From NCBI GenBank assembly GCA_014894455.1, contig JADBLN010000091.1, forward strand, positions 75,778 to 112,300: a stretch of DNA of 36,523 nt, read 5' to 3'. Position 1 is the stretch's first letter. The number at the start of each line of letters is the position of its first letter. Made by a program: the position numbers and the translations under genes. The DNA is from Acidobacteriota bacterium. GTDB taxonomy: Bacteria; Acidobacteriota; Aminicenantia; Aminicenantales; Saccharicenantaceae. Below, piece by piece: positions 21,919 through 36,523 of this stretch. The notes beneath the pieces were generated by a model, which made no database searches, was not told the DNA's origin, and saw only the letters and a list, made by a program, of their open reading frames with translations.

Positions 21919-22473
21919 ATGAAGACCATAAAAAGGGGATTCGCGGCTTTCCTCTTCCTGGCCCTTGCGCCCTGTATCTTTTCGGCCACCGCGGCCGACC
22001 TCCGAAAACTCTACGACCCGGTCATCAAGAAGGTGGCCGGGAAATACCGGATCGATCCGGCGCTCGTCCACGTCATCATCCGGGCCGAATCGAACTACGA
22101 CAGCTTCGCCATTTCGGACAAAGGGGCCATGGGCTTGATGCAGCTGATGCCCGCCACGGCCAAGCAGTACGGGGTGAATAACGTTTTCGACTCGGCCCAG
22201 AATATCGAGGGCGGCGTCCGCTACCTCGGGGATTTGGTCAAACTCTACGAGGGCCAGACCAAGCTCGTCCTCGCGGCCTACAATGCGGGACAGGAGGCGG
22301 TCAGGAAGTACAAGGGCATCCCGCCCTATCCGGAGACAAAAGCCTATATCACCGGGATCATGAAGAACTACAAGAAGCCCTCGATCTTGGCGAAAAACCC
22401 CGTTTTCATGGGCCGGGATGCCTCTGGGCGGATGCTCCTGACGAACGACCCGGAAGCGGTCAGGAAGAAGTAA
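21919..22473 (+). CDS. periplasmic lytic transglycosylase (SLT domain)
   Basis: 184-aa muramidase-like enzyme expected to cleave peptidoglycan glycan strands with formation of 1,6-anhydromuramic acid. Residues 1-26 form a signal peptide (hydrophobic FAAFLFLALAPCIFSATA). The SLT domain spans about 30-155: IIRAESNYD with catalytic E57, GAMGLMQLMPATA, and LAAYNAGQEAV. It lacks the large alpha-solenoid of Slt70 and resembles small MltC/MltE-type enzymes. The C-terminal 30 residues are unrecognised. It is separated from alaS by 69 bases; a weak promoter-like TTGCCA at 21875-21880 may serve it. Confidence 0.9.
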   Translation: MKTIKRGFAAFLFLALAPCIFSATAADLRKLYDPVIKKVAGKYRIDPALVHVIIRAESNYDSFAISDKGAMGLMQLMPATAKQYGVNNVFDSAQNIEGGVRYLGDLVKLYEGQTKLVLAAYNAGQEAVRKYKGIPPYPETKAYITGIMKNYKKPSILAKNPVFMGRDASGRMLLTNDPEAVRKK

Positions 22474-24040: not shown

Positions 24041-24571
24041 CTATTCTACGTTGTTTACCCGGATTTTTTCAAGTGCCCGGGCGGCGGCCCTTCTCCGCTT
24101 CGCGAGGAGGAGGTCGGCGAGGCCGGTCACGAAAAAGAAGGGCAGGACCGTCCCCCAGACGACTCCGGTGACGAAACGGACTTTAATAGGGCTCGCCCAG
24201 ATCCCCAAGATGCTCGCCGCCCCGTCGACAGCCATCGGCAGGGTCAGCAGCAGGAAAACGCGGGCGGAAGGGAGCTCGAGCTTCGAGAAGCCGCGGACAA
24301 AAGGATAGAGAACGAGTCCGGCCGCGAATCCCGCGTAGATCCCCAGGCAACGTCCGCAGACGGCGAGCGGATGGCCATGGAAGGTGAAACACCTCCCCGG
24401 GACCTGGTGGCAGATAGGCGAAAACGCGGCATAAATGAGGCGGGCGGCCCCGGCCGATCCCCGGCTGGCGAGGACGGGGGCCAGGAAAATGGCCGAGAGC
24501 CAGATCGCGGTGCCGGCTACGGTCAGGAGATATACGGCGAGGACTGTCCGGGATATTCCAGGGGGCGACAT
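24041..24571 (-). CDS. DUF2085 family membrane protein
   Basis: 176-aa integral membrane protein with about four helices. The conserved DUF2085 motifs are CHQVPGRCF (C54) and VCGRCLGIYAG (C72-x2-C75), probably a metal or redox site near the membrane face; the function of the family is unknown. The open frame reaches 24676, but ATG 24571 is preferred: the longer version would run through the promoter of the divergent gene, and an extended -10 (TGCTACAAT) lies just before 24571. There is no Shine-Dalgarno site there, which hints at a leaderless message. First gene of the minus-strand unit with the small membrane protein and lipid kinase. Confidence 0.8.
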   Translation of the reverse strand: MSPPGISRTVLAVYLLTVAGTAIWLSAIFLAPVLASRGSAGAARLIYAAFSPICHQVPGRCFTFHGHPLAVCGRCLGIYAGFAAGLVLYPFVRGFSKLELPSARVFLLLTLPMAVDGAASILGIWASPIKVRFVTGVVWGTVLPFFFVTGLADLLLAKRRRAAARALEKIRVNNVE

Positions 24572-24578
24572 GCGCCGT

Positions 24579-24587
24579 ATTGTAGCA
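24579..24587 (-). promoter_or_regulatory. extended -10 promoter for the DUF2085 gene
   Basis: On the minus strand TGC precedes TACAAT (24584-24579). No clear -35 is present. Predicted start is at about 24572, directly before the ATG, consistent with leaderless translation and with the missing ribosome site. Confidence 0.45.
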
Positions 24588-24625
24588 CGGAACCCAGGAC
24601 CCGGCGATGCCGGGGAGTCTAGGGA

Positions 24626-24655
24626 TTGACAGGAGAGGACGTCCTTGGGTAAATT
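24626..24655 (+). promoter_or_regulatory. promoter for the protease-like/TPR gene
   Basis: Perfect TTGACA (24626-24631), 18-base spacer, TAAATT (24650-24655). Predicted start near 24662, 38 bases before ATG 24700, with TAGGAGGA (24688-24695) as ribosome site. Confidence 0.6.
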
Positions 24656-24699
24656 AGGGCTATCCGAGCTACGCAATTTCCGTTGGTTAGGAGGACGCG

Positions 24700-26544
24700 A
24701 TGACCGGATTCCGGAAGGGTACCCTGGTTTTGATCTGCTCGATCATCTTAGCCTCGTCCTGGGCCTTCTCCCAGACCGAGGAGGCGAACAACATCCTCGG
24801 GCAGGCCGGCGGAGGCGTGCTGACGATCATCGGCTACGGTGCCGATAAGGCGGAGATCGCCAACTCCCGCGGGTCGGCTTTAGCCCTGGCTGAGGACGTC
24901 GTCGTTACGGCCTATCATGTCATCTCCCAGGCGTTCGATGTCGAGGCCGTCAACTTCAAGGGGAAGAAGGTCAAGATCGAGGGCGTTCTCGGTGTCGATA
25001 AGGCCAATGACATCGTGCTCCTCAAGCTGAAAGGCAAGGCCCAGCCCCTGCCCATCGGCACCACCGACAACTTGGCCGTGGGCGCGCGTCTCTTCGCCTT
25101 GGGCTCCAATAACCTGGCCAAGATCATCATCTCCGAAGGCACCTTGCGCCGGGTCGTTGACATGGGAGCTGGAGTCAAGATCCTCGATGTCGCCATGGCC
25201 TCCGCTCCGGACGAGTTCCGCGGCGGGCCGCTCCTCGACGTCAACGGCCAGCTCGTGGGAATGCTCCTTGTCCTGGGAGACCGGGGCTTCAAGTTCGGGC
25301 TTCCCATCGGGGCCCTGGTGAGCGTCCCCCGGACGGGGAAGGTCGTCGAATTCAAGTCCTGGACCCGGGAGAATTATTTTGAGACGGTCGAAGGGAACGT
25401 CTTCGCGGGGCGGGCGGCGGCGGCCCTCAACGAACAGATGACGGCCCGGCTCTACCTGGAGAAGGCGGTCAAGCTCAACCCCTCCTATATCGATGGATAT
25501 GTGAAACTCGCCGATATCTACGCCAATCAGCGCGACTACACCGCGGCCGCCGCGGCCTACAAGAAAGTGACCGAGCTCGACGCCTCGCGGGCCGACGCCT
25601 TTTTCGGGATGGGCTCCGTCCTGATGAGACAGACGAAGTACAAGGAAGCGGTCGAAGCCTTGGAAAAAGCCATCGGCCTCAACGTCGCCGACAAGGAGGT
25701 CCAGTTCGTCCTCGGGACGGCCTATGAGGAGCTCCAGGAGTTCGACAAGGCCGCTGGGGCCTACGAGAAGTTCATCGCCCTCGCCCCGGCCGTCACATGG
25801 AGCGCCTACCTGCGCCTGGGGATCTGTCGGACGAAGCTCGGGCAGTTCGACGCGGCCATCGCCGCCTTCCTCGAGGCCCAGAAAGCCCAGCCCAAGGACC
25901 TCAAGGTCAATTTCAGCCTGGCCGAGGCCTACGAGAAGGCCGGCCAGCTCGAGAAGGCCGAGGCCGTTTACAATATCCTGGCCGAGATCAACCCGGCCGA
26001 GGCCAAGACTTACCACCGCCAGTCCTTCCGGATTTACGACGTCGCCGGGAATTACGAGCGAGCCATCACGCCGGCCAAAAAAGTCATCGACCTCGAACCG
26101 AGGAACGAGACGAACTATTACTACCTCGGGCTGACGTATTTCAAGCTCCAGAAGTACGACGAGGCCGTCGCCGCTTTTCAGCAGGGCCTGGCCGTCAAGC
26201 CCGATTTCGCCCACGCCTGGTTCCAGATCGGTTCCGCCTATTTCAACCAGAAAAAATTCAAGGAGGCCGCGGCGGCCTACAAGAAATACGCCGAGTTCAG
26301 TCCGGACGACCCGTTGGGCTGGCTAAGCATCGGCGTGTGCTACATGCAGCTCAAGGACCACGAGTCCGCCCTGGAGCCGATGAAGAAAAGCGTTGAGCTG
26401 AAGCCTGACAACGCGGTCGCCCAATTCAACTTGGCCATCGTCTACATCAACCTCAAGGACAACTTCAGCGCCAAGGAGATCTACAACAAGCTCGTCACCC
26501 TGGACCCGACCCTCGCGGAAAAGCTGAAAAAGTACCTCCGCTGA
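24700..26544 (+). CDS. exported trypsin-like pseudoprotease with TPR repeats
   Basis: 614-aa secreted protein. Residues 1-24 form a signal peptide ending AFS. About 33-220 resembles a DegP/trypsin-like domain: VVVTAYHVI with H73 and DKANDIVLLKL with D104 sit where the catalytic His and Asp belong, and DNLAVGARLFALGS matches the third conserved strand. At the nucleophile, however, the expected GNSGGPL reads EFRGGPLLD, so Ser is replaced by R174. A proteolytic function is therefore unlikely and a binding role is inferred. About 240-610 contains roughly ten TPR repeats (YLRLGICRTKLGQFDAAIAAF, shortened here in kind; NYYYLGLTYFKLQKYDEAVA; AWFQIGSAYFNQKKFKEAAA), forming a protein-binding solenoid. 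It has its own promoter, and the next gene is tRNA-Leu. The partners are unknown. Confidence 0.85.
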   Translation: MTGFRKGTLVLICSIILASSWAFSQTEEANNILGQAGGGVLTIIGYGADKAEIANSRGSALALAEDVVVTAYHVISQAFDVEAVNFKGKKVKIEGVLGVDKANDIVLLKLKGKAQPLPIGTTDNLAVGARLFALGSNNLAKIIISEGTLRRVVDMGAGVKILDVAMASAPDEFRGGPLLDVNGQLVGMLLVLGDRGFKFGLPIGALVSVPRTGKVVEFKSWTRENYFETVEGNVFAGRAAAALNEQMTARLYLEKAVKLNPSYIDGYVKLADIYANQRDYTAAAAAYKKVTELDASRADAFFGMGSVLMRQTKYKEAVEALEKAIGLNVADKEVQFVLGTAYEELQEFDKAAGAYEKFIALAPAVTWSAYLRLGICRTKLGQFDAAIAAFLEAQKAQPKDLKVNFSLAEAYEKAGQLEKAEAVYNILAEINPAEAKTYHRQSFRIYDVAGNYERAITPAKKVIDLEPRNETNYYYLGLTYFKLQKYDEAVAAFQQGLAVKPDFAHAWFQIGSAYFNQKKFKEAAAAYKKYAEFSPDDPLGWLSIGVCYMQLKDHESALEPMKKSVELKPDNAVAQFNLAIVYINLKDNFSAKEIYNKLVTLDPTLAEKLKKYLR

Positions 26545-26693: not shown

Positions 26694-26778
26694 GGGCAGA
26701 TGGCGGAATTGGCAGACGCGCTAGGCTTAGGACCTAGTTCCTGATGAAGGAGTGCGGGTTCGAGTCCCGCTCTGCCTA
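26694..26778 (+). tRNA. tRNA-Leu (anticodon UAG)
   Basis: Complete class II cloverleaf of 85 bases. Acceptor GGGCAGA (26694-26700) pairs with TCTGCCT (26771-26777), the first pair being G-U, with discriminator A at 26778. D stem GCG/CGC; anticodon stem CTAGG/CCTAG with loop CTTAGGA and anticodon TAG at 26728-26730; a long variable arm with CCT/AGG stem; T arm GCGGG-TTCGAGT-CCCGC. CCA is not encoded. No terminator separates it from trigger factor 44 bases downstream, so it is probably cut from a tRNA-tig transcript. Confidence 0.96.
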
Positions 26779-26822
26779 CTGATGTCCGGCGCCAAGATCC
26801 ACGGAGAGGAAGAGAAGAAGAG

Positions 26823-28097
26823 ATGAACGCACCAGGAAGAGAGAGCCGCCTCACGGATGTCAGCCCGAGCCGCAAGGAGATCGAGCTCGAGATCCCCCCC
26901 GACGAGGTCCGGAAGGAATACGAGAAGATCCTCGGCGAATACGCCGGCAAGGTCAAGCTTTCCGGTTTCCGCAAGGGTCACGCGCCCCGGGACATGGTCC
27001 GCAGCCTCTTCGAACACGACATCAAGCACGACGTCTACGATTCCCTCATCCCCCGTGTCCTCGAAGAGGAACTGCGGGGACTCCGGCTGAACCCCGTCAA
27101 CGTACCGGTCCTGCGGGACCTGAAGCACGAGGAGGGACAGCCCCTGCGATGCACGGCCGCCTTCGAGATCCTCCCGGAATTCGAGCTTCCCGATTACCGG
27201 ACGATCCAGGTCCCCGGGCAGACATCCGAGGTCGGCGAAGAGGACGTCGACAAGGTCCTCGAGGACATCCGGGTAAGGGCCGCCGAGTACGTGCCCGTCG
27301 AGGGCAGGGGAGTGGGGGACCGGGACTATGCCGTGGTCGAGATGCAGGGTCGGGACCGGCGGACGAATCGCTTCCTGCCCGTCGAGAAGGCCGTCGTTTT
27401 GGCCGGCCACGCCGAGAACGAGCCCGCCCTGAACGAGAAAATCAAGGGCATGAAGGCGGGCGAGGAGGGCGCCTTCGAGGTCTCGTATCCGAAGGACCAC
27501 CCCAACCGGCGCGTGGCCGGGAAGGACATCGCCTACAGCCTCAAGGTCCGGGAGGTCAAGGAGAAAAAGGTCCCCGAACTCAACGATGAGTTCGCCCGGA
27601 CGGTCGGGTCCCCCGAGGGCCTCAAGGACCTCCGCGAGAAAGTCCGCAAGGAGCTCGTGGAGGCCCGGGAGAAGGCCGGGCGGAACGAAACGGCCTCCGC
27701 GGTCCTGGCCGAGGTCGCCAAACGGGTTTCCCTGGAATTGCCCGAATCCGTGGTCGAGCAGGAATCCCTGGCCGTCCTGAAGCGGTTCCTTTCCGCCTCC
27801 CGGGACCGGCGGATCGCCCCGGAAGCCCTCGAGGAGCTGAAGGCCCAAGCCCGGCGCCAGGCAGAAGATCACCTGAAAAACCATCTGATCCTAGAGAAAA
27901 TCGCCAAAAAGGAAGGTTTCGGGGTCACCGAGGAGGAGATCCACGCGGAAATCCGGGACCTGGCCCAGGCTAATCACGTCTCTGAGGCCTACCTGGCGGA
28001 CATGCTCAAACGGGAGGACCGGCGGGAGGAACTCGTCGAGACCCTCCTCTTCCGGAAGACGGTTGACTTTCTGGTGAAAACGGCTATAATTAATTGA
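26823..28097 (+). CDS. tig: trigger factor (ribosome-associated chaperone, PPIase)
   Basis: 424-aa chaperone that docks at ribosomal protein L23 and shields nascent chains. The N-terminal ribosome-binding signature GFRKGHAP is at 48-55. The middle FKBP-like PPIase domain lies at about 150-235 (GDRDYAVVEMQGRD, EKIKGMKAGEEGAFEVSYP). The C-terminal helical chaperone arms include VPELNDEFARTVG and LPESVVEQESLAVLKRF. Length is normal (432 in E. coli). ATG 26823 follows a purine-rich GAGAGGAAGAGAAGAAG tract. In many bacteria tig is followed by clpP-clpX-lon; here clpP and clpX are absent and lon comes directly next. Confidence 0.95.
   Translation: MNAPGRESRLTDVSPSRKEIELEIPPDEVRKEYEKILGEYAGKVKLSGFRKGHAPRDMVRSLFEHDIKHDVYDSLIPRVLEEELRGLRLNPVNVPVLRDLKHEEGQPLRCTAAFEILPEFELPDYRTIQVPGQTSEVGEEDVDKVLEDIRVRAAEYVPVEGRGVGDRDYAVVEMQGRDRRTNRFLPVEKAVVLAGHAENEPALNEKIKGMKAGEEGAFEVSYPKDHPNRRVAGKDIAYSLKVREVKEKKVPELNDEFARTVGSPEGLKDLREKVRKELVEAREKAGRNETASAVLAEVAKRVSLELPESVVEQESLAVLKRFLSASRDRRIAPEALEELKAQARRQAEDHLKNHLILEKIAKKEGFGVTEEEIHAEIRDLAQANHVSEAYLADMLKREDRREELVETLLFRKTVDFLVKTAIIN
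28063..28090 (+). promoter_or_regulatory. lon promoter inside the 3' end of tig
   Basis: TTGACT (28063-28068), 16-base spacer, perfect TATAAT (28085-28090). It lies within the last codons of tig; predicted start near 28097, so lon can be transcribed apart from tig, with a leader of about 129 bases. Confidence 0.65.
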
Positions 28098-28225: not shown

Positions 28226-30676
28226 ATGCAGGATTCCAACGAGCACACCGAGGTCCTGAGGAACATCCCCCTCATCCCGTTGAGGGATCTCGTCGTCTTC
28301 CCCGCGACCCTCGTCCCGTTCATCGTCGGGCGCTCGTCCAGTATCCAGGCGCTGGAGAAGGCCGCCGAGAAGGACAAGATGATCTTCCTGGCCGCCCAGA
28401 TGGATGCTTCGATCGACAATCCGACGCCCAAGGACATCTACTCGGTCGGCGTCACGGCCAAGATCATCCGGACCATCAAGAGCGACGAGCGCAACATGAA
28501 GGTCATCGTCGAGGGGAAAAGCCGGGCCCGGATCGTCGAGTACCTCAGCACTTTCCCCTACTACCAGATCCTGGCCAAGGTCGTCAAAGAGGTCGAGGAC
28601 CGCGTCCCCGAATCCCGGGAGCTGCTGAAGCGGGTCCTGGCCCTGTTCGAGGATTACCTCAAGCTCAATCAGAACACCAACTTGGATTCGATCATCCCCG
28701 CTCTGAGGGAGAACACCCCGGAGCGGATCACCGACATCATCGCCTCCCACGTCTACATGCCTATCGAGGAGAAACAGAACCTGCTCGAGACGGTCAACAG
28801 CTTCGAAAGGCTGAGGCGGCTCAACTACGTCCTGGAGAACGAGATCCTGAAGATCCACGCCTCCTACCAAAAGGACCCCCAGCGGGCCGCCCGGCGCCGG
28901 ACGGGATTCAAGGACCAGCAGCCCGGTCAGAAGGGCGGATTCCCGCCCGGGTCGCCGAATTCGCGCAAGGAAGACCAACCCAACGAGATCGAGGAGCTGC
29001 GCCAGAAAGTGGCCAAGGCCAAGATGCCCCCGGACGCCGAGGAAAAAGCCTACAAGGAGATCGAGCGCCTGGAATCCATGCCGCCGATGTCGGCCGAGGC
29101 CACGGTCAGCCGGAACTATCTGGATTGGCTCCTCTCCCTGCCCTGGAACAAGAAATCGAGAGAAAAACGGGAGCTCAAGGAAGCCGAGCGGATCCTCAAC
29201 GAGGACCACCACGGTCTGGAGAAGGTCAAGGAGCGTATCACCGAGTACCTGTCCATCCGCCAGTTGGTGAAGAACCCGAGGGGGATCATCTTAGGGCTCG
29301 TCGGGCCGCCCGGCGTCGGCAAGAGCTCGCTCGGAAAGTCCATCGCCCGGGCCATGGGCCGGAAATTCGTCCGCCTGTCCCTGGGCGGCGTCCGCGACGA
29401 AGCGGAGATCCGGGGACACCGGCGGACCTACATCGGCGCTTACCCCGGGCGCATCATCCAGATGATCAAGCGCAGCGGGACGAAGAACCCCGTTTTCCTC
29501 TTGGACGAAGTCGACAAGATGAGCATGGATTTCCGGGGCGATCCGGCCTCGGCCCTGATGGAGGTCCTCGACCCGGAGCAGAACAGCACCTTCCTCGACC
29601 ATTACATCGACACCGATTTCGACCTGTCCCATGTCATGTTCATCGTCACGGCCAACATGGTCGACCCCATCCCCAAGCCCCTGATCGACCGGATGGAGAT
29701 CATCCGCATCCCGGGCTACATGGAGGACGAGAAGGTCGAGATAGCCAAGCGCTTCCTCCTGCCCAAACAGAGGACCGCCCATGGGCTGACCGAGGAGAAC
29801 ATCAAGATCACCGACCAGGCCCTGCTCAAGCTCATCCGCGGCTACACCCGCGAGGCCGGCGTCCGGAACCTCGAGCGGGAGCTCACGACGATCTGCCGCA
29901 AGATCGTCAAGCGGGTCGTCGAGCAGGGCAAGGACCACAAGGAGAAGATCACGCCCAAGAACCTCGAGGGATACCTGGGCGTTCCCAAGTTCCGCCGGTC
30001 CGAGTTCGACAAGAACGACGAGGTCGGGGTCGGCACGGGCATGGCCTGGACGGAATTCGGCGGGGAACTCCTGAGGTTCGAGGCGACGAAGATCCACGGC
30101 AAGGGAAATTTCACCCTGACCGGCCAGCTCGGCGAGATCATGCAGGAGTCCGCCCAGACGGCTTTCTCCTTCGTCCGGGGGAAGATCTACGAGCTCGACA
30201 TCGCCCGGGACCTCCACCGGAATTACGACATCCACATCCACGTGCCCGAGGGTGCGACGCCCAAGGAAGGCCCCTCGGCGGGGATCACCATCGCCACTGC
30301 CATCATCTCCCTCCTGACCGACATCCCGGTGAGCAAGAAAGTGGCCATGAGCGGCGAGATCACGCTGAAGGGCAAGGTCCTGCCCGTGGGCGGGATCAAG
30401 GAAAAGCTCCTGGCGGCCTACCGGGAAGGCATCCGCGAGGCCATCCTTCCCCTCGACAACCGGCCCGACCTGAAGGACCTCCCCAAGGCCATCAAGACGG
30501 GAATGATTATCCATCTCGTCGAGACGATGGACGACGTCCTGAAGGTCGCCCTGACCCGCGAACTGCCGAAGAAACCCGCCGAGGCCCGGGACAAGAAGGC
30601 GCCCGCCGCCGAGGCGGAACGGCTGGCCCGCAAGGCGGAGGACGAAGCGGCCAAGGAGCCGCCCCTGACCAACTGA
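28226..30676 (+). CDS. lon: ATP-dependent protease Lon (LonA)
   Basis: 816-aa cytosolic AAA+ serine protease that degrades damaged and regulatory proteins. The N-terminal LON domain starts [20 protein letters not shown]. The AAA+ module has [15 protein letters not shown] (Walker A), [11 protein letters not shown] (Walker B) and [13 protein letters not shown] (sensor 2). The protease dyad is S684 (PKEGPSAG) with K727 (GGIKEKL). It is odd at residues about 217-250: the almost invariant long-helix motif REYYLxEQxKAIQKELG is missing, replaced by a Gly/Pro/Gln-rich stretch ([20 protein letters not shown]). Neither alternative reading frame restores the motif. The C-terminus has an Ala/Lys/Glu-rich tail. 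It has its own promoter and follows tig. Confidence 0.95.
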
Positions 30677-35210: not shown

Positions 35211-35459
35211 ATGACGCTAGCTGAGTGGATTTCTGGGGCTGTGTCCCTCGTGGCTATTGTGTTGCTCTTCATCCCAAACAAAATCCAATTTGGGACGGTC
35301 ATGGATCATCTTGGGGAACTTGATCAGGCGGGGAAGCCAATACCAAATCAATGGATGGTGCGTCAGGCGAGAAGAGACCGGACGCTTCGGTGGGCACTGG
35401 TGGCGGTTGCTTCAGGCGGATTGATCAACGCCATTTTGAAAATGCTGGGACGGGATTAG
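35211..35459 (+). CDS. small membrane protein, unknown function
   Basis: 82 aa with two predicted membrane helices, about 5-24 (EWISGAVSLVAIVLLFIPN) and 60-78 (RWALVAVASGGLINAILKM), and a basic stretch between (MVRQARRDRTLR). AGGAAGGAG (35195-35203) gives one of the best ribosome sites of the cluster. It follows the third HEPN-like gene by 20 bases and ends interlocked with the convergent nuclease-like gene: the two stop codons share TTAG at 35456-35459. Holin-like or anchor roles are possible but unsupported. Confidence 0.6.
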   Translation: MTLAEWISGAVSLVAIVLLFIPNKIQFGTVMDHLGELDQAGKPIPNQWMVRQARRDRTLRWALVAVASGGLINAILKMLGRD

Positions 35460-36463
35460 TCCCTCGTCTTCTTGGCCAACTGCTTGAACCACTTTTGCAC
35501 ATTGGGGAGTTCATCTTCGGTAATAAAAGACTGAACCGGAAATGTCAGCAATTCTCCGTGTCTGGCATAATAGACCCCCACGTGGTTGATCATGTGAGGG
35601 CGTGGCGGTTCACCGACCCCGCCAATACTCGACAGAATATAGTACCCCAAGAGCTGGTGAAACACCCCGCCAAAGAACTCCCGGTGTTTGGCGCATTTAA
35701 TATCCACCAACACATCGTCTAGGACAAGATCGGCATCTGCATTGCCTACCAGTGCTGACCCCTTGCCGAAGGTCGGATTCAGGAAGATACGTTTCTTGCC
35801 CCTCAGCCATTTCTGCTTCTCGAAGAGGTGGAACAGAGCAATCAAGTCCTCAACGTCTTTGGGGTCAGTTATGCCCAACCATGGGTCCGGGCGGCTGGCT
35901 CTGTAAATGGGATCAATCTGAGCGAGTTTAAGGCATTGTTCGGCTAGTTTCTTGGTGGGGACCCTCGCGCCCGAAACGTAGCGCTCCCTTGTATCCTTTG
36001 CTTCATTAACGATATCTTGGACTTCAGCGGCATAGGCCGACGCAATGGTTCTGATCAACCAGACGTCTCTATGCAGTAAGAACGGATAGGTACAAGGCTC
36101 GTCCGCCGAGGTTTGGGTGTTTTGCAGAGCGGCCAGTAGGGGGAAGTCCAAAAGCCCTTGAACGATGTCGAAGGACATACCAAATACAATGCCAGCCCAG
36201 GCATTGAATTCATCACTCCAAGCGTTGGGTTTGTTCAATTGCTTGGCAGTCATTTCGGCCACGGTCTGCTGGCGCTTAGCTTTTGGATACATTCTCAGCA
36301 GATAGAGGCGCGCCATGTAATCGAATGCCGTGCCGACCAATATGTAGTGCTTGGTTAGGGCCTTGCACATAGGTTCAGGGTGGCCGAGGACTTTGGGTTT
36401 TGTGAACTCAGTATAGAACTTTTCCCGGACGGCCCTATCATGTAGAAAAGTGGTTAGATTCAT
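35456..36463 (-). CDS. PD-(D/E)XK nuclease-like protein with RecB-type signature
   Basis: 335 aa, cytosolic. The C-terminal third carries a RecB/Cas4-like nuclease pattern: GNADADLVLDDVLVDIK with D245 and D254-x-K256, then HQLLGYY giving Q270-x3-Y274 (QxxxY motif). The N-terminal two thirds are helical and unrecognised (HDRAVREKFYTEF, HYILVGTAFDYMARLYLLRM). ATG 36463 is chosen for its GGGGGT site; a TTG at 36508 would extend it but overlaps a likely TTGACT promoter element (36503-36508) with GATATT 17 bases on. The 5' end is near the window edge but complete under this start. GC is lower than the housekeeping part. It could be a restriction or defence nuclease; substrate unknown. Confidence 0.65.
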   Translation of the reverse strand: MNLTTFLHDRAVREKFYTEFTKPKVLGHPEPMCKALTKHYILVGTAFDYMARLYLLRMYPKAKRQQTVAEMTAKQLNKPNAWSDEFNAWAGIVFGMSFDIVQGLLDFPLLAALQNTQTSADEPCTYPFLLHRDVWLIRTIASAYAAEVQDIVNEAKDTRERYVSGARVPTKKLAEQCLKLAQIDPIYRASRPDPWLGITDPKDVEDLIALFHLFEKQKWLRGKKRIFLNPTFGKGSALVGNADADLVLDDVLVDIKCAKHREFFGGVFHQLLGYYILSSIGGVGEPPRPHMINHVGVYYARHGELLTFPVQSFITEDELPNVQKWFKQLAKKTRD

Positions 36464-36523
36464 TACTACCCCCGGAAACAATATCCTCTGTTGTTCGTCA
36501 CAAGTCAAGCTCCCAGTTGATCA

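Follow-up and report, generated by a model that had tools for sequence, protein, structure and literature searches.

The gene at positions 24700-26544 (+) of the window (the whole stretch of 36,523 nucleotides of Acidobacteriota DNA that was analysed here) codes for a protease domain of the S1C (HtrA/DegP) type that has lost its nucleophilic serine and is fused to a TPR array. In our preferred reading, which we hold with moderate confidence, the product is a former HtrA-type protease that now serves as a core, probably exported, non-catalytic S1C-TPR scaffold or adaptor.

Architecture and fold

The open reading frame is exact at these borders, intact, starts with ATG and encodes 614 amino acids (aa). 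The N-terminus (aa 1-24; 24700..24771, +) has a basic start followed by a hydrophobic run and looks like a type I signal peptide, with putative cleavage before Gln25; this residue was kept in 60 of the 63 aligned rows, and the N-terminal pattern was conserved across the rows (in this first alignment, the window and its own copy, L001, were both counted). The protein is probably exported, as the first-pass annotation, a note made earlier on this DNA, had proposed. The signal-like sequence is followed by the S1C domain with the trypsin fold (aa 26-215; 24775..25344, +), which was delimited with Pfam, profile search, AlphaFold2 and VIA, by a linker with the conserved residues K219, E224 and Y226 (aa 216-229; 25345..25386, +), and by the TPR superhelix (aa 230-613; 25387..26538, +), which was delimited with the Pfam TPR families, the AlphaFold2 helices and Foldseek. 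Pfam matched Trypsin_2 at aa 58-188 (E 5.9e-15, above its cut-off) and TPR families in the C-terminal part (TPR_2, E 1.4e-52, nine stretches). The NCBIfam search gave 40 matches, none of which reached its cut-off among the 25 of 40 listed; the DegP model scored 35 bits (cut-off, 416). No PDZ family was present among the 25 of 37 Pfam matches listed, and the AlphaFold2 model contains only helices after aa 230, with TPRs in place of a C-terminal PDZ domain.

The full-length AlphaFold2 model was built on 58 family sequences (mean pLDDT 93.8). In it, a beta-rich domain at about aa 40-207 precedes 11 helix pairs and a last helix, so that the earlier description of a TPR fusion stands and its count of about ten repeats was slightly low; the tandem 34-residue helix pairs that characterize TPRs were recovered with Pfam, AlphaFold2 and Foldseek. 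Because the Foldseek listing for the full model gave TPR-type matches (50 rows listed; best match, the OGT TPR domain 1w3b_A, E 2.4e-17), the S1C head was modelled alone (pLDDT 92.7) and searched separately. This model was matched to RsgI9, DegP, DegS and HtrA1 with both Foldseek and VIA. With VIA, the Z score was 24.6 for RsgI9 7sjy_A (190 residues, 2.8 A, 24% identity) and 24.1 for DegP 3otp_F, with DegS and HtrA1 close behind; as Z differences below 1 are ties, RsgI9 stood first in the list but tied with the others. In the profile search with the S1C part, RsgI9 (7sjy) was the nearest (E 3.7e-35) and HTRA1 was next (E 3.1e-17). Pfam, profile search, AlphaFold2 and structure comparison thus agree on an S1C, trypsin-like fold (chymotrypsin double beta-barrel), and the protease fold claimed at first, now aligned to S1C proteases and modelled, is predicted with confidence.

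Across the order, the S1C part was less conserved than the TPR part (mean share of the commonest residue, 0.51 vs 0.57). In the comparison with a near relative (L003), dN was 0.110 for the window S1C part (24775-25344) and 0.021 for the TPR part; the head's higher divergence may come from local recombination or from a faster rate of change.

Catalytic site in the window, the genus and the order

In the alignments, His73 (TAYHVI; 24916..24918, +) and Asp104 (ANDIVLL; 25009..25011, +) occupy the catalytic positions, and the nucleophile loop reads E172-F173-R174-G175-G176-P177-L178. The altered oxyanion and nucleophile positions E172-F173-R174 (chymotrypsin 193-195) are encoded at 25213..25221 (+), and G175-G176, which follow the lost serine, at 25222..25227 (+); G175 was present in 63 of 63 aligned rows and underwent 0 changes over the 95-row tree. 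His and Asp in place with Arg174 at the serine position is exactly what had been reported; what the first-pass annotation did not contain is that the oxyanion Gly (chymotrypsin 193) is also lost, being Glu172 in the window protein. The His-Asp-Ser triad and the Gly193 of active S1C proteases are therefore both broken, and the protein has the trypsin fold, degenerate catalytic site and non-Gly residue at 193 of an S1C pseudoprotease. With Arg in place of the nucleophile and Glu in place of the oxyanion Gly, the window protein is very unlikely to act by classical serine proteolysis, and we judge an absence of serine-protease catalysis to be very probable. MamO has Thr in place of Ser, together with Glu at 193; its crystal structure led the authors to argue that any residue other than Gly at 193 keeps the oxyanion hole out of its active conformation, and they judge MamO to be incapable of forming this hole (PMC4794232); by homology, the same argument would apply to the window protein.

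All 13 species of the window's genus carry Arg174, against 0 of the 72 other order rows; this is the outcome of the check on orthologues that had been called for. The 13 rows were monophyletic (SH-aLRT, 100 in the tree of 64 proteins and 99 in the 95-row tree), and within the genus Arg persisted even in a protein 60% identical to that of the window. As it is confined to one genus-level clade, it most simply arose once at the base of that clade. Both H73 and D104 were present in 11 of the 13 genus rows; in L013, both His and Asp were lost and Arg174 was retained. Residue 172 in these rows was Q in nine, E in two, P in one, M in one and G in none.

Over the 85 distinct order rows (7 duplicates were dropped, and the second copy L229 was counted apart; L049 and L062 share one genome, G013), position 174 was S in 30, N in 16, C in 16, R in 13, T in 4, D in 3, A in 2 and Q in 1. 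The catalytic His was present in 66/85 and Asp in 54/85, Gly193 was missing from 80/85 and present in 5/85, and H-D-S was retained in 14/85; judging by their residues, these 14 orthologues might still be active. Only one of them (L035, GLSGGP) also has Gly193 and thus a complete H-D-G-S site, and it branches first among the orthologues of the order. An orthologue with an intact GNSGG motif had been named earlier as a sign of recent mutation; none was found among the 85, but the 14 H-D-S rows, including L035 with Gly193, bear on the same point. H-D-C was read in 15 order rows, mainly from another genus, and 12 of the 15 have Pro at the oxyanion position; these forms may be either thiol variants or another dead form. 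The rows of genus g4 were mostly H-D-C (L047, L050, L051, L053, L055, L057, L061, L063, L065 and others).

In the phylum search with the full-length profile, hits beyond the class fell mainly in the TPR part, and the search was repeated with the S1C profile; of its many matches outside the order, L166-L174, L230 and the class rows L115, L116 and L233 were examined. Seven of the eight examined S1C proteins with TPRs outside the orthologue group read H-D-G-S, six elsewhere in the phylum (L169, L170, L172, L173, L174 and L230) and one in the window's own family (L228, genome G020); the eighth, L166, read H-D-D-S. The S1C proteins without TPR matches (L167, L168 and L171) were all H-D-G-S. In nearer rows that do not belong to the core group, the residues were H-D-N-A (L115), H-D-E-S (L116), H-D-T-S (L233) and H-D-H-S (L229). 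As a control, GNSGGP was found in 20 of 22 HtrA-like paralogue loci of this genome group, which were chosen by open-frame length and not at random; the exceptions, L032 and L141, are divergent copies. The window's own genome has an HtrA with GNSGGP, L031. L032 lies in the same genome (G000:C62:42099-42446) within an open frame of 590 aa that has Trypsin_2 and two PDZ domains; by eye it is without the catalytic His and Asp (TTALIS, TQLAL) and retains GSSGGP, and it is a probable second pseudo-HtrA of this genome.

The first tree comprised the window together with 61 order rows and 2 class rows (64 different proteins in all), and the 95-row tree leaves out L167, L168 and L171 (no TPR match) and L226 and L227 (partial). 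On trees built with a quick method without bootstraps and with some long branches, parsimony placed Ser at the nucleophile position and G or T at 193 at the tree base as written; Gly193 in L035, L052 and L015-L017 was either kept or regained. The simplest reading of these residues is that an active ancestor would have lost the oxyanion Gly early and that the nucleophile then changed repeatedly. Since 14/85 order rows retain H-D-S and 7/8 of the TPR-fused relatives retain H-D-G-S, the Arg form is one genus-level end-point of repeated loss, and it is not a feature of the whole S1C-TPR family.

Distribution and gene neighbourhood

Orthologues (match at E <=1e-25; the count assumes that the genome table is sorted by kinship) were found in 84 of 94 genomes of one Candidatus Aminicenantes order, and the 10 genomes without one are at most 89% complete. 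A full orthologue (E <=7.5e-31) was present in 56 of the first 60 genomes, the window's own included; the remaining four (G028, G031, G045 and G047) are at most 82% complete. At E <=1e-25, 81 of the 84 genomes had a single match and three had two (G013, G020 and G356). In the class search, 36 further genomes of the class, outside the listing, were without a match. The named relatives are Candidatus Aminicenantes MAGs, one of them titled just 'Bacterium'; other phyla gave two weak matches, to the TPR part. Second copies of the S1C-TPR type were seen at L049 (G013:C1), L116 (G119:C29) and L229 (G356:C62).

The gene order around the locus was counted over 53 of the 54 listed loci (L040 was too short), with second copies and class rows included. 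Downstream and on the same strand, tRNA-Leu (26694..26779, + in the window) was found within 1.2 kb in 38 of the 47 loci with at least 1.2 kb of downstream sequence, and tig (trigger factor; 26823..28097, +; Pfam) in 43 of the 47 loci with enough sequence; the lon protease gene (28226..30676, +) follows by Pfam and the map of loci. Upstream, among the 42 loci with at least 3.5 kb, a divergent gene for a DUF2085 protein (24041..24676, -; Pfam E 1.1e-22) was found in 40 and a transglycosylase SLT-domain gene on the same strand (21919..22473, +; Pfam) in 38. This gene arrangement recurs at locus L115 of G119, the one genome from another order in which it was seen. It was not found around the second copy L049 or in G176 (L117), and for the second copy L116 it was absent downstream, the upstream side being cut off. 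From this conserved neighbourhood and the presence in 84/94 genomes, we conclude that the S1C-TPR gene is a core gene of the order. A functional tie to the adjoining tig-lon genes is unlikely, the neighbourhood alone being no demonstration of it.

Between the DUF2085 and S1C-TPR genes, an open reading frame of about 390 aa was seen in six loci examined (L035:4501-5661, L045:4085-5269, L046:6901-8076, L052:6339-7493, L077:9264-10445 and L078:6707-7861); the L078 copy matches glycosyltransferase family 87 (GT87; 6.6e-22), and the window has no such frame at this place. At the contig end, 33300-36523 of the window, the GC content goes from about 0.62 through 0.56 to 0.48, six open reading frames are without Pfam matches, and one of 350 aa (35459-36508, -) weakly matches RTasPDDEXK of DRT systems in PADLOC (4.7e-9); this region is possibly a mobile or defence island. 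For the S1C-TPR protein itself, PADLOC gave six weak matches at domain level (best, RT-Protease_XI, 2.3e-7), which stem from common trypsin or TPR folds; given its export-like appearance and its conserved locus, we set aside a role in defence.

Proposed role, alternatives and meaning

The S1C fold, the linker and the TPR array were all kept across the order. In the proposed scaffold or adaptor reading, the ancestor would have been an active exported S1C-TPR protease, and erosion would have struck its oxyanion hole and its nucleophile. By analogy, the TPR superhelix would hold one or more protein partners of the envelope, the S1C domain, whose dead active-site region contains Arg174, would be a non-catalytic head for peptide or protein contact or for structure, and the whole protein would be a periplasmic scaffold or chaperone-like adaptor. 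Since the Arg form is unlikely to be catalytic, the explanation with the fewest assumptions is a protein that binds through its TPRs and has a non-catalytic S1C head; in our judgement, the protein probably works through TPR-mediated protein binding, and the S1C cleft itself may bind a ligand, which we suggest only tentatively. A protease fold reused as a binding module in a scaffold was the idea of the first-pass annotation. The S1C fold, the missing Ser nucleophile and the TPR fusion agree with it and the change is long-standing, but it is not family-wide; 'binding module' and 'scaffold' are arguments by analogy, with drift as their main rival.

Three proteins offer such analogies. PflC of the Campylobacter jejuni flagellar motor is described as a periplasmic HtrA-like protein without the triad that forms a structural lattice or scaffold and was recovered together with PflA; it differs from the window protein in its two PDZ-like domains instead of TPRs, its 364 residues and its flagellar location (PMC12222027). 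MamO of magnetotactic Alphaproteobacteria is also a trypsin-fold pseudoprotease with the Ser replaced and has Glu at 193 as in the window, but the replacement is Thr and not Arg, and the available part of the paper mentions no TPR fusion; there it is a metal-binding magnetosome protein that activates MamE-dependent proteolysis, and several independent origins are stated for pseudoproteases (PMC4794232). The third, the S1C domain of RsgI9 from Clostridium thermocellum (7sjy), keeps His and Asp and reads E-S-T-G-G-P, with neither Ser nor Gly193; unlike the window protein, RsgI9 is a membrane anti-sigma factor, was solved with an NTF2 domain and has Thr where the window has Arg. Note that the roles of PflC, MamO and RsgI9 are not transferable to the window protein without experiment. 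HtrA, DegP and DegQ share the fold (Z about 22-24) with His and Asp in register, whereas the window protein is without PDZ and without GNSGG; the other S1C-TPR proteins named above likewise have Trypsin_2 and then TPRs by Pfam but, apart from L166, an intact H-D-G-S. BepA, which combines a protease and TPRs in the periplasm, was considered as an analogue. No literature on this S1C-TPR family was found in a search outside which most subscription journals lay; two of the papers listed concern conflict systems that have trypsin and TPR parts (PMC10907252, PMC7159879).

The main rival is relaxed decay, in which the S1C domain would be a folded cap for the TPRs and Arg174 would be tolerated, roleless and spread with the genus; we regard it as unlikely but as a serious candidate. 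Position 174 changes at an ordinary pace (15 changes over the family, rank 88 of 190 S1C columns; 21 parsimony changes on the 95-row tree, outgroup rows included). The rate outside the genus predicts 1.55 changes inside it, and zero were observed (P ~0.21, a parsimony estimate), so that no selection for Arg is claimed; the constancy of Arg174 is not striking statistically and no proof of a role. Also in favour of drift, His and Asp were themselves lost piecemeal, as in L013. However, the S1C domain is under purifying selection (dN/dS 0.18-0.56 across six pairs) and is therefore maintained; G58 and G175 were invariant and Y72, K89, G147 and P202 nearly so in 48 rows, and H73 and D104 underwent 6 and 8 changes, below the S1C column median of 16.5. 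From the retained fold, this dN/dS range, the near-universality and the stable locus, we conclude that the protein matters.

An S1C head that binds polysaccharide as a sensor of glycan or cell-wall ligands, in the manner of RsgI9, is improbable. RsgI9 was the best profile match and first by structure though tied in Z, it has E-S-T-G-G-P at the same loop, and a transglycosylase-domain gene lies nearby; its protease-like domain is reported to bind cellulose and to autocleave (PMC12203970). However, similarity of fold reveals no ligand, and RsgI9 is a membrane anti-sigma factor, which no listed Pfam match or predicted element of the window protein suggests. Still less probable is an enzyme that works with another nucleophile or by non-classical proteolysis: H73 and D104 are retained together in most genus rows and some relatives retain Ser or Cys alongside His and Asp, but in all 13 genus rows position 195 is Arg and position 193 is not Gly, and no Ser or Cys occurs among the 55 of 190 S1C columns that are invariant in the genus, which speaks against the other active-site serine that had been envisaged. 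An error of sequencing or assembly, or a mutation of very recent date, has next to no probability and is refuted by the orthologues, since Arg occurs in all 13 species of one supported clade, in separate genomes and with two codons (CGC in 10/13 and CGG in 3/13).

With the scaffold or adaptor reading preferred, the protein is most likely a case of pseudoprotease reuse, a known evolutionary theme, in a new family; the HtrA-type pseudoproteases with studied roles (MamO and PflC) and the RsgI9 domain indicate that this fold is readily reused, and the single protein alone would be of little surprise to a specialist. Most interesting is the series of different nucleophile replacements, more so than Arg alone: one mostly syntenic orthologue starts with an intact H-D-G-S site, loses the oxyanion Gly and ends in varied replacements of the nucleophile, with Arg fixed genus-wide. 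As this path lies on one orthologous gene, the order of events in the loss of an enzyme becomes testable. Should the Arg form and the Cys form each have acquired a new chemistry or ligand, this would be a natural mutational series on one scaffold. It is a rather long shot that a core envelope S1C-TPR protein repeatedly left serine proteolysis, in Arg, Cys and Asn/Asp forms with one early branch at H-D-G-S; if true, the series would show a quality-control protease becoming a dedicated envelope adaptor. The gene also codes for a component, probably of the envelope, that is nearly universal in a lineage whose named relatives here are MAGs.
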